64,000 nt of DNA. Source: Pararhizobium gei (GTDB lineage: Bacteria; Pseudomonadota; Alphaproteobacteria; Rhizobiales; Rhizobiaceae). Numbering within the stretch: position 1 is the first letter of the stretch; the number at the start of each line of letters is the position of its first letter. Location of the stretch: the NCBI RefSeq assembly GCF_029223885.1, contig NZ_CP119409.1, forward strand, positions 3,496,501 to 3,560,500, given 5' to 3'. The notes beneath the pieces were generated by a model that saw only the letters and a list, made by a program, of their open reading frames with translations, was not told where the DNA came from and did no database searches. Below are positions 41,512 through 44,578 of this stretch, one piece after another. The position numbers and the translations under genes were made by a program.

Positions 41512-41690
41512 GCTTCTCGGGTCAAGCCTGAGGATGGCGGCCTGTGGATGTGGCTGGACGGCTTATCGGTGCGGCTGGCTGACGTGTGGATAAGGCTGGC
41601 CGGCTTGTCGGTGTGGCTGGCTGGAAAGTCCCGTCTGCACCTCAACAGGCATCCCCACCCTCCGTCATCCTCGGGCTCGACCCGAGAATC
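41512..41690. repeat. Inverted pair of rhizobial palindromic repeats (REPIN-like) before pabB
   Basis: A 29-bp unit (41512-41540) recurs in reverse at 41662-41690, with about 25 of 29 positions equal. Each copy is itself a hairpin around CTCGGG/CCCGAG. The 120-bp spacer contains an imperfect 42-bp tandem repeat (copies starting near 41557 and 41599). A unit like CGTCATCCTCGGGCTTGACC is abundant between genes in rhizobia. The right copy ends 22 bp before the pabB ATG. Confidence 0.75.
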
Positions 41691-41711
41691 GACGCACAAG
41701 CCCGCATTCAA

Positions 41712-42872
41712 ATGAACACCACTCAAGCTTCCTTCGTCCTCTTCCGCGATGACAGTGCAAACCGCACAACGGTCTTTGCCGAACCGTCGCGTGTCATCTC
41801 GGCGCATACCGCAGCCGAATTCCGCTCCGGCCTGATCGAACTTGAAAAGGCCAAGGCCGAGGGAAAGTGGCTGGCGGGTTTTATGAGCTACGAGGCCGGT
41901 TATCTGTTCGAGGAGAAACTGGCGCCTTTTGCTAAGGGCAATCGCCGTACGCCCCTGATGTCCTTCGGCGTCTTTGACAGCCCCGCCGACGGACACGCAC
42001 TCAGCGAGCCGCAACGGCGCACAGAAAACGAGCCTTTCATTACAAAAGCCCAGGCCGCCTGGGATTTCGAGACGTATAAGAACCGTTTCGACAGGCTGCT
42101 CAACCATCTAAAGATGGGCGATTGTTACCAGGCAAATCTCACCATGCAGGTCACCGCCCACTGGAAGGGCGACCCTGTTGCCGCCTTCTGGTCGCTGATC
42201 GAGCGCCAGCCGGTGAAATACGGCGCACTCGTTTCGCTCGACGGCCCTATCCTTTTGTCTCGTTCGCCCGAACTGTTCTTCCGCGTCGACACGGACGGCT
42301 GGATCGAGACGCATCCGATGAAGGGCACCGCGCCACGCGGCGCGACACCCGGCGAGGACGAGGCTCTGATCCGCGAAATGCGCGAGGACCCGAAGAGCCA
42401 GGCGGAAAACCGGATGATCGTCGATCTTCTGCGCAACGACATTTCGCGGATCACGCAAGTCGGTACGCTCGACGTGCCCCGGCTGTTCGATATCGAGACC
42501 TACCCGACCGTGCATCAGATGGTCAGCCATGTCCGGGCAAAACTGTTGCCGGATATCGGCATATCCGGGATTTTCGAAGCGCTCTTCCCCTGCGGCTCCG
42601 TCACCGGTGCACCGAAGATGCGGGCAATGGAAATCCTGCACGATCTGGAGGATGGCCCGCGCGATGCCTACTGCGGCGCCATCGGCTTCATCGCCCCGGA
42701 TGGCACGATGCGCTTCAACGTTGCCATCCGCACCCTGTCGCTGTTTCCGGATGGCGAGGCCATCTTCAATGTCGGCGGCGGCATCGTCTTCGATTCCAAG
42801 GCGGAGTCGGAATATGACGAGTGTCTGCTCAAGGCCCGTTTCGCGGTCGGCGATGCGGGGATCACGCCATGA
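41712..42872 (+). CDS. pabB: Aminodeoxychorismate synthase, component I
   Basis: PabB converts chorismate and ammonia to aminodeoxychorismate for folate synthesis. The 386 residues carry NHLKMGDCYQANLTMQVTAH near residue 135, LLSRSPELFF, ETHPMKGTAPRG, the signature PCGSVTGAPKMRAMEIL and YCGAIGFI near the end. No good ribosome site precedes the ATG; the repeat element ends 22 bp upstream and the frame stays open through it. The stop overlaps the pabC start (ATGA), so the two are coupled. Confidence 0.93.
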   Translation: MNTTQASFVLFRDDSANRTTVFAEPSRVISAHTAAEFRSGLIELEKAKAEGKWLAGFMSYEAGYLFEEKLAPFAKGNRRTPLMSFGVFDSPADGHALSEPQRRTENEPFITKAQAAWDFETYKNRFDRLLNHLKMGDCYQANLTMQVTAHWKGDPVAAFWSLIERQPVKYGALVSLDGPILLSRSPELFFRVDTDGWIETHPMKGTAPRGATPGEDEALIREMREDPKSQAENRMIVDLLRNDISRITQVGTLDVPRLFDIETYPTVHQMVSHVRAKLLPDIGISGIFEALFPCGSVTGAPKMRAMEILHDLEDGPRDAYCGAIGFIAPDGTMRFNVAIRTLSLFPDGEAIFNVGGGIVFDSKAESEYDECLLKARFAVGDAGITP

Positions 42873-43678
42873 GTGATTTCCAGCTGATCGAGACCATGCG
42901 CTGGGAACCCGGCGCAGGCATCGTCCGCTTGGCGCTGCATATGGCACGCCTGAAACGCTCTGCAGGGCGTCTGGGGTTTTTGGGAGCGGAGAAGGCGGAG
43001 GACCATCTGGCTGAAGCGATTGCGGAGGCTTTACCCCCCTCTGTTCCTTCGGGACATCTTCCCCACAAGGGGGGAGACTATTCTTCGCTACAACAAGCCC
43101 AGGGGGCGACAAGCAATGAGATCGCGTCACCAGCGATCTCCCCCCTTGTGGGGGAGATGCCCGACAGGGCAGATGGGGGTAAAGCCCTCCACGCGACCGG
43201 AACCTCTTCCTTATTCCCCCTCCGCGTTCGCCTTACCCTCGACAGCGCCGGCGAAATCGACATCACCACGACACCCTTCACGCCCTTGCCGACCGACACC
43301 ATCTGGACTGTCCGCCTCGCCAAAACACGCCTCTCTTCCGCCGATCCGCTCTTGCGCCACAAGACCAGCCGCCGCGCCGTCTACGAGGCTGCCCGGGCAG
43401 AATATTCAGGCAACGAAGCCCAGGAGGTTCTGCTGCTCAACGAACACGGCGCGCCCTGCGAAGGGACGATCACGTCGATCTTTCTGGATGACGGGTCGGG
43501 CATCTTGAAAACGCCACCGATCGCCTGCGGCCTGCTGGCCGGCGTCCTGCGCACCGAAATGATCTGCGCCCGTCGCGCCCGCGTCGAGCGTTTCTCCCTT
43601 GGCGATCTCAGGAAAGGCAAACTCTATATGGGCAATTCGCTGCGCGGGCTGATCGCCTGCGAAATCCTTTCAGCGTAG
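42869..43678 (+). CDS. pabC: Aminodeoxychorismate lyase-like aminotransferase class IV, with inserted repeat
   Basis: The product is a fold-type IV PLP enzyme that would release pyruvate to yield 4-aminobenzoate. FQLIETMRWEPGAGIVRLAL opens it and the PLP lysine lies in LLRHKTSRRAVYEAA; VLLLNEHGAPCEGTITSIF follows. Residues about 54-106 are coded by a 160-bp palindromic repeat and look like low-quality sequence (LPPSVPSGHLPHKGGDYSSL). Without them the length is near 216, which matches normal rhizobial relatives as I recall them. The frame is intact, so an active enzyme with a surface loop is possible. It overlaps pabB by 4 bp and the convergent cyclase gene by 9 bp. Confidence 0.88.
   Translation: MSDFQLIETMRWEPGAGIVRLALHMARLKRSAGRLGFLGAEKAEDHLAEAIAEALPPSVPSGHLPHKGGDYSSLQQAQGATSNEIASPAISPLVGEMPDRADGGKALHATGTSSLFPLRVRLTLDSAGEIDITTTPFTPLPTDTIWTVRLAKTRLSSADPLLRHKTSRRAVYEAARAEYSGNEAQEVLLLNEHGAPCEGTITSIFLDDGSGILKTPPIACGLLAGVLRTEMICARRARVERFSLGDLRKGKLYMGNSLRGLIACEILSA
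43027..43186. repeat. 160-bp palindromic repeat element inside pabC
   Basis: Left arm 43027-43077 and right arm 43137-43186 are inverted copies, about 43 of 50 positions equal, with perfect outer ends (GGCTTTACCCCC) and perfect inner ends (CCCCACAAGGGGGGAGA). A 59-bp spacer lies between. It resembles a palindromic repeat very common between genes of rhizobia and Brucella-related bacteria. The element stays in frame. Confidence 0.85.
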
Positions 43679-44578
43679 GCTGACAGCGATACGGTCCCGG
43701 CCTGAATGCTTGGCCTCGTAAAGAGCCGAGTCCGCACGGGAATAAAGCGCGCGTGCGGTATCGCCACGCTCCACCACCGCGATGCCGGCGGAACAGGTGT
43801 AGAAAAACTGTGGCGATGCTTCGAGAGGTCGCGCCGTTCGTATTTTCTCCAACAGACGATCGACAACCTTGCGCCCTTCCGGCAGGTTTGTATCCGGAAA
43901 GATGAGCATGAACTCCTCGCCGCCGATCCGGCCGAAACAATCGTGCCGCCTGACCAGCGGATGAACGCGGCGGGCGAAGTCCAGCAGGATATCGTCGCCC
44001 GTCTGGTGACCGAAACGATCGTTGATCCCCTTGAAATAGTCGATGTCGAGAATGCAGACGCACCCTGCCACAAGTTCCGAAGCTGACTGATTCTGCACCA
44101 GTTCCTCAAGCTTTGCCATGATGTAGCGCCGGTTGGAAACGCCGGTGAGTTCATCCGTATTCGACGCCTTCAGCGCAAAATCCCGATCCTGTCGGAGCGA
44201 CCGTTCGTCGGTGCGCAAATCGGTGATGTCGTTTGCCACACAAAGCATCCAGCCATTGCGGTTGACTGTTTCCGTCATCCATAACCAGCACCCGCCGACC
44301 ACATCCGTCTCGAAGGCCCGGAAGGGTATCTTGCCGCGCCGCGACTGGGCGGACACCAACCAGTCGTCGAAATCGGCGGCCCTGATGACGGTGCCCTGCC
44401 CAAGCGCATGGTTGCGACGCATCAGGTCGGGCCAAAGCGGTGTTTCGTGGTCTTCGAGGTGAAAGACATCCCGAAATACTGCGTTCGCATAGCGTAGACG
44501 ATCGTCATTGTCGTAGAGCGCAACAAGAACACGGGTCGTGTCCCTCAAGGAGGCAAGATTGGTAAAGATGTCGTCCAT
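43670..44578 (-). CDS. PAS-GGDEF diguanylate cyclase
   Basis: The enzyme makes cyclic di-GMP. The 302 residues hold an N-terminal PAS-like sensor (LVALYDNDDRLRYANAVFRD, about 18-125) and a complete GGDEF domain. The active site is GGEEF at 219-223, with substrate residues in DIDYFKGINDRFGHQTGDD. The inhibitory I-site RxxD is present (R210 to D213, five residues before GGEEF), so product inhibition is expected. There is no membrane segment. The 3' end overlaps the convergent pabC by nine bases. The signal sensed is unknown. Confidence 0.93.
   Translation of the reverse strand: MDDIFTNLASLRDTTRVLVALYDNDDRLRYANAVFRDVFHLEDHETPLWPDLMRRNHALGQGTVIRAADFDDWLVSAQSRRGKIPFRAFETDVVGGCWLWMTETVNRNGWMLCVANDITDLRTDERSLRQDRDFALKASNTDELTGVSNRRYIMAKLEELVQNQSASELVAGCVCILDIDYFKGINDRFGHQTGDDILLDFARRVHPLVRRHDCFGRIGGEEFMLIFPDTNLPEGRKVVDRLLEKIRTARPLEASPQFFYTCSAGIAVVERGDTARALYSRADSALYEAKHSGRDRIAVSLR

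Follow-up and report, generated by a model that had tools for sequence, protein, structure and literature searches.

How does a conserved enzyme gene come to carry a palindromic DNA repeat within its reading frame, and what becomes of such an insert once it is there? The question is raised by a pabC-like gene of Pararhizobium gei, which lies in a stretch of 64,000 nucleotides of contig NZ_CP119409.1 (assembly GCF_029223885.1, positions 3,496,501 to 3,560,500 of the forward strand), referred to here as “the window”. A sequence-only reading had described an inverted repeat at 43027–43186 that interrupts the gene. Here, we describe this element, its copies elsewhere in the same genome, and the empty and occupied alleles of the gene across the Rhizobiaceae. 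We consider it very probable that a REP/MITE-like repeat inserts widely, and that its in-frame, stop-free copies persist in tolerant loops, evolving under relaxed constraint and eroding without loss of frame.

The pabC locus

The features discussed below are as follows (positions in the window).

41586..42872, + strand: pabB-like gene (PF00425), directly upstream of pabC, span as given by the ORF finder
42869..43678, + strand: pabC-like gene (class IV aminotransferase), 269 aa, PF01063 match
43024..43190, no strand: palindromic doublet of family A, two inverted units and a spacer, recognized by arm complementarity and own-genome copies
43024..43077, − strand: left unit, reading outward, with core CTCCCCCCTTGTGGGGAAGATG, a small hairpin and a CAGAGGGGGGTAA end
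43078..43136, no strand: spacer between the units, 59 nt
43137..43190, + strand: right unit, with core CTCCCCCCTTGTGGGGGAGATG, hairpin TGCCCGACAGGGCA and a AGATGGGGGTAA end
43031..43216, + strand: pabC residues 55–116, the segment missing from element-free orthologues, up to the PLRVRL strand

The pabC start codon (ATG) overlaps the pabB stop codon. By homology and by its position after pabB, the product is predicted to be 4-amino-4-deoxychorismate lyase. It matches the NCBIfam model PRK07546.1-5, which is named only “hypothetical protein”, at 307.6 bits (cut-off 189). The true start of pabB is perhaps the ATG at 41714 instead of the listed 41586. The gene order is M3 peptidase gene, pabB, pabC, with a saccharopine-dehydrogenase-family gene farther downstream. 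In a Sinorhizobium meliloti record, the annotated order is M3 oligoendopeptidase, aminodeoxychorismate synthase component I, diguanylate cyclase, homospermidine synthase. An unannotated, element-free pabC lies between pabB and the diguanylate cyclase gene in S. meliloti Ak57 (L357), and its frame breaks early.

When the P. gei genome was searched with the C-terminal part of PabC, the one match at E ≤ 1e-15 was pabC itself. The only other class IV aminotransferase match in this genome is a 327-aa frame at 1490163; a family A doublet (G000:C1:1489738-1489933, where G000 is the P. gei genome) sits just upstream of that gene.

A second inverted repeat, at 41514–41688, lies between the M3 peptidase gene and pabB. 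Its 43-nt arms are 77% complementary, it contains one GANTC, at 41686, and the pabB ORF as listed runs through its right arm. We take its CCGTCATCCTCGGGCTCGACCCGAGAATCGACGC stretch to resemble a repeat that is common in alphaproteobacteria.

Structure of the element

The inverted repeat first described in pabC is real, multicopy, and folds beyond shuffled sequence; its arms reach a few bases further than had been claimed, to 43024–43190. The two 54-nt arms (43024–43077 and 43137–43190) are 72% complementary without gaps, and with gaps they pair in 49 of 56 aligned columns. The predicted RNA fold of the element has a free energy of −112.9 kcal/mol, whereas shuffled sequences average −64.2 kcal/mol (z = −12.2), and folding as single-stranded DNA gives z = −9.8 against shuffles. 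The unit core, allowing up to two mismatches, occurs twice in the window, where 0.02 occurrences are expected, and both lie within the element. Terminal inverted repeats, a criterion for MITEs, are present. An Rfam scan of 42800–43700 returned no match up to an E-value of 1.

The pabC frame is open right through the element, as the sequence-only reading had it, and the protein on both sides is that of a class IV aminotransferase. The linker is 213 nt long, compared with 30 nt in the element-free G007 allele; this net gain of 183 nt corresponds to 61 codons, and not to the ~53 residues first estimated. Counted with its flanking bases, the whole insert thus has a length divisible by three. The 61 added residues are rich in proline, serine, glycine, and alanine. 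Target-site bases had been invoked to restore the frame; inspected by eye, the ends of the insert differ between species and no target-site duplication is evident. A solved homologue, 3QQM, lacks the segment: the alignment runs to chain residue 64 and resumes at residue 70, where the window protein has residues 56–116. We infer that the occupied site is a surface loop between conserved blocks of the protein.

A family of paired hairpin units

When the element segment was compared with the P. gei genome by BLAST, 88 pieces were returned. Each family A copy is a pair of inverted, hairpin-bearing units of ~50 nt around a variable spacer. The unit reads CTCCCCCCTTG[T/A]GGGGGAGATG, followed by a small hairpin and then AGAGGGGGG[T/G]AA or a near variant. 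Variants of the small hairpin (TGTCACGAAGTGACA, TGTCCCGGAGGGACA, TGTCGGCGTCGCCGACA, TGCCCGACAGGGCA, and others) change on both sides of the stem. A parser that required TG[TC][CT] at one end and [GA][AG]CA at the other parsed all 39 units of G000 and 42 of the 45 units of G016. As judged by eye, 16 of the 19 P. gei pairs examined have the same subtype, TTGTG or TTGAG, in both units, two pairs are mixed, and one has a variant; in two P. gei pairs (2614690/2614778 and 2687856/2687948), the units are in reversed order. At G016 loci L259–L267, several doublets have longer stretches of conserved flank in common, along with a GAGCAAGAGGCC-type spacer, as might be expected of the core of a larger repeat.

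No GTAG or CGTC tag is conserved at the foot of the listed units, which by eye end mostly in GGGGGG[T/G]AA or GGGGGGT, and GANTC is present in only two of 19 doublets and absent from the window copy. A search of the P. gei genome for a Y1/RAYT transposase (PF01797) gave no match at E ≤ 0.001, while the control search matched five of 14 genomes; this candidate for the mover was rejected.

Two further palindromes occupy the same protein loop in other species. Family B is a 138-bp palindromic repeat that in PabC reads SLFSPAGRSAE...HLLPAGEKR, with matches in all four genomes searched, including that of P. gei. Family C, a third palindrome, is found in the PabC of G248.

The simplest account of the pabC segment would be that it is ordinary protein sequence, palindromic at the DNA level by coincidence, and an open frame is what such sequence would have. 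The identical DNA family, however, recurs elsewhere in the genome, within and outside genes, and there are orthologues without the segment. The copies elsewhere in the genome refute this account, to which we give next to no weight.

Empty and occupied alleles

A survey of the genus found one match to the C-terminal part of PabC in each of 26 genomes, P. gei included, and a survey of the family found a PabC match in 203 of 394 genomes. We read 109 Rhizobiaceae PabC genes: 26 from the genus, 22 from family-survey loci, 60 taken by similarity, and one from Shinella zoogloeoides. By hand scoring, 18 of the 109 carry an insert or a remnant in the same loop and 91 are without it; element-free alleles thus exist among relatives, and the outcome in which all of them share the segment did not materialize. 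Eleven of the occupied rows belong to family A, six to family B, and one to family C. Occupation is found in 14 of 26 rows within the genus and in four of 83 outside it.

The distance between the anchors on either side of the loop is 27–93 nt in 91 rows and >100 nt in 17; in one row, a contig end makes it unmeasurable. Among the 91 rows at 27–93 nt are G014 and G392, in which the two sides of the loop lie in different frames, and five loci (L199, L206, L209, L218, and L223) whose linkers of 63–93 nt may be old remnants and were scored as “without”.

How often has the loop been entered? Counted by hand from the LG[FL] anchor, the register of family A is 17, 15, or 13 residues in different lineages: 17 in seven genus rows, 15 in G283 and in G018 (a doubtful assembly), and 13 in S. 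zoogloeoides and G416. On a PabC tree built by a quick method with the linker excluded, the four states need 12 changes, and presence or absence needs 10, of which the starred branches force six; these are changes, not gains. A conservative count would put the gains at five. Family B in the genus and family C in G248 are insertions separate from family A. Within the genus, a single old insertion of family A, followed by losses and by replacement with family B, is as good an account as repeated gain, because seven genus genomes have the same register.

In-frame copies in other genes

That the repeat spreads into genes, as the sequence-only reading had suggested, is borne out within P. gei, where the same repeat lies in frame in four more genes. 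Among the 19 family A doublets examined, which are those with a fetched locus (BLAST found more), six are in frame within genes: one each in pabC, uvrB, ftsY, and a di-haem oxidoreductase gene, and two in cobN. The uvrB copy is in the C-terminal part of the protein, and the di-haem oxidoreductase (PF06537) copy is near the N-terminus. Two further doublets, close to the beginnings of long frames, were not included in the in-frame count.

FtsY peptides derived from the element were matched in 21 of the 26 genus genomes, with up to five substitutions allowed and without a chance control. The five non-matching genomes comprise G024, G018, and G014, whose sequences are truncated or doubtful; G010, whose peptides are recognizable by eye only; and G023, which has none. 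The region of FtsY before the helical domain (L358–L381) shows the element peptides PPSVPSGHLPLKGGD and ISPLEGEM..EGG, with up to three per protein by eye, and a VPEPVLGLAEGKTRGG variant occurs in several species. In other records, five of 75 element matches (from the best 80 of 231 matches) have an open frame of at least 60 residues on both sides. These five are FtsY of Sinorhizobium shofinae and of Rhizobium tubonense, a molybdopterin oxidoreductase of Xaviernesmea oryzae, and two frames without a Pfam match.

Nesting, erosion, and scars

Occupied loops do not all hold a single, intact copy. The PabC of G012 has two copies, that of G283 has an extra repeat nested inside family A, and that of G004 retains a remnant consisting of the left half only. 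In Shinella sp. PSBB067, which is outside the 109, the left half of family A lies at the S. zoogloeoides codon and is followed by another palindrome that replaces the remainder, all in frame.

A loop of CobN offers a parallel. Across the 26 genus genomes, this loop holds family A in 10 (G000, G003, G004, G008, G009, G010, G015, G016, G021, and G024), a mosaic in two (G005 and G020), a scar in three (G041, G012, and G017), and no recognizable element in nine, with two unscored (G013, which has an assembly gap, and G018). Comparison of the CobN of G041 with that of G010 reveals that most of the element has been deleted in frame, with GGGGGGTA left behind. We infer that the losses were deletions between or beside the palindromic arms, as hairpin-prone DNA would give.

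Reading frames and constraint

The 13 P. gei doublets that were not assigned to genes have 78 reading frames, of which 19 run through the doublet without a stop, with the ends of the doublets being approximate. Since one-third of insertions would have the right length, roughly one in 12 would be readable. Hence, no special mechanism is needed: chance and purifying selection are enough to account for the in-frame survivors.

Both flanks lie in one open frame in 16 of the 17 long PabC inserts. The exception is the doubtful G018, which is in another frame downstream of the element; the PabC of G014 is frameshifted. These two breaks are likely sequencing errors, the assemblies being 87% (G018) and 78% (G014) complete. 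Both are few-contig assemblies of low completeness (L078 and L086) with broken frames in PabC, CobN, or FtsY, which are probably likewise sequencing errors.

These observations bear on two further accounts of the window gene. A ribosome might bypass the element, or the element might be cut from the mRNA, so that it never appears in the protein, and a large hairpin in the coding strand is the kind of structure that invites this suggestion. Skipped inserts would not, however, be expected to stay open, given how few frames are open in doublets not assigned to genes, whereas nearly all long PabC inserts keep their flanks in a common frame; we regard skipping as highly improbable. Equally improbable, in our estimate, is that pabC is decaying and that the element marks a pseudogene. 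A net insertion of 183 nt into a conserved enzyme, together with the PabC frameshifts in the G014 and G018 assemblies, would suit decay, but the window gene has an open frame, conserved flanks, and an overlap with pabB. Nor did the analysis find the second pabC that had been proposed to accompany decay, and dN/dS outside the insert is 0.23 and 0.30 in comparisons of the window gene with two partners. On the reading that we favor, the insert is probably translated in the cell as an extra loop, and the enzyme would be expected to work with it.

In seven pairs of occupied PabC genes, the dN/dS of the insert is 0.46–1.84, compared with 0.14–0.30 for the rest of the protein; the pairs are partly dependent, with three of them among G000, G016, and G003. 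The higher values indicate weaker protein constraint on the insert while the enzyme is kept. Two pairs show a different pattern. Between S. zoogloeoides and G416 (L109 and L197), the insert differs at eight of 171 nt and the flanks at 117 of 603 (dS 0.59). The insert is 97% identical, spacer included, and by eye the boundary of the likeness is sharp at the ends of the element. The spacer of this pair is unlike that of other aligned copies, and the best other full-length copies are 82–87% identical among those scored, which in G416 were 40 of the 118 first-look candidates and in the Shinella genome 40 of the 44. In G021 and G008, the insert also evolves slowly relative to flanking synonymous sites. 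Neutral evolution with vertical inheritance does not account for the likeness between the inserts of S. zoogloeoides and G416; conversion, repeated insertion from one source copy, and constraint are candidate explanations.

Constraint of this sort would be expected if the insert had been co-opted, i.e., if the peptide that it adds, or the hairpin that it forms in the pabBC mRNA, were functional, for example by tuning translation or mRNA decay, and were kept by selection. The strength of the RNA hairpin is consistent with co-option, as are the conservation of inserts beyond flanking synonymous sites in these two pairs (the first with its distinctive spacer) and the retention of FtsY peptides in most genomes of the genus. 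Against it, 12 of the 26 genus genomes have no recognizable PabC insert, the loop is taken up by family A in some species and by family B in others, and the dN/dS of the insert exceeds that of the remaining protein by a factor of 1.5 to 8. On balance, we consider co-option of the window insert unlikely, albeit the least unlikely of the alternatives.

Origin and fate of the insert

The account that we favor, insertion followed by tolerated persistence, starts from what can be read from the DNA itself: membership of a repeat family, empty alleles, the in-frame state, nesting, and scars. A non-autonomous REP/MITE-like copy would have entered the part of pabC that encodes the loop just before the PLRVRL strand. 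With the frame in use free of stop codons and the net insert a multiple of three, the ribosome should read through, adding 61 residues, and a loop between conserved blocks may tolerate such additions. Across the Rhizobiaceae, the PabC loop, the CobN loop, and the N-terminal region of FtsY would have been occupied repeatedly by elements of this kind. Surviving in-frame copies would then drift under relaxed protein constraint and acquire nested copies, and copies may be lost through in-frame deletions that leave scars.

The occupation, replacement, nesting, and loss of repeats can be followed in one loop of a housekeeping enzyme through dozens of free-living species, with CobN as a parallel. Repeats of this kind can thus supply parts of ordinary proteins, and because both empty and occupied alleles of single enzymes exist in nature, the idea that protein segments arise from selfish repeats is directly testable. 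A broader and more speculative idea, which we put forward tentatively and think somewhat doubtful, is that the palindromic repeats of Rhizobiaceae are a standing source of new protein segments. The loops or N-terminal regions of PabC, CobN, and FtsY would be landing pads in which unrelated families insert, nest, and erode to scars, and in places (the FtsY N-terminal region and the near-frozen Shinella/G416 PabC insert) the repeats might have been retained as conserved components of the protein or its mRNA.

Comparison with known repeats

Several known repeats share features with family A. Rickettsia palindromic elements (RPEs) are described as palindromic repeats of ~100–150 bp that lie in frame in unrelated conserved genes and are read as an extra peptide (PMC2229807, PMC10969869); a guanylate kinase bearing an RPE is reported to be translated and active (PMC2229807). 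Like RPEs, the window family is multicopy and palindromic, lies within and outside genes, and is stop-free and in frame in conserved genes that have element-free orthologues. Unlike the Rickettsia RPEs, it belongs to free-living Rhizobiaceae and is a doublet, in which a spacer separates two hairpin units, and unrelated families have entered one loop, where they nest and leave scars. The likeness is one of kind, and to call the family the rhizobial counterpart of RPEs is a fair analogy.

REPs are reported within ORFs of many bacteria, with different REPs at about the same recB site in two Xanthomonas and, in Rickettsia conorii, a REP in uvrB (PMC3733652). The window family resembles REPs and REPINs in its inverted pairs of hairpin units, its intragenic copies, and its occupation of uvrB, and differs from those with a RAYT in that it has no conserved GTAG or CGTC tag and its own genome has no Y1/RAYT match. 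The CIR repeats of Caulobacter, Brucella, and other alphaproteobacteria are described as two inverted arms and a linker, ~110 bp in all, with a conserved GANTC, and are said to be absent from genes (PMC2229807). Family A shares the arms joined by a linker and an alphaproteobacterial host, but 17 of the 19 doublets, the window copy among them, have no GANTC, and members of the family are found within genes; the lack of GANTC rules out identity with CIR. The rhizobial intergenic mosaic elements (RIME, as cited in PMC2573895) are likewise described as intergenic repeats of rhizobia.

In the literature searched, which covered few subscription papers, we found no report of protein-coding palindromes in Rhizobiaceae. 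As a kind, such inserts are already known, most familiarly from the RPEs of Rickettsia and also from the REPs reported in ORFs of free-living bacteria (PMC3733652). What is newer is that unrelated repeats have used a single loop time and again, with nested copies and scars.
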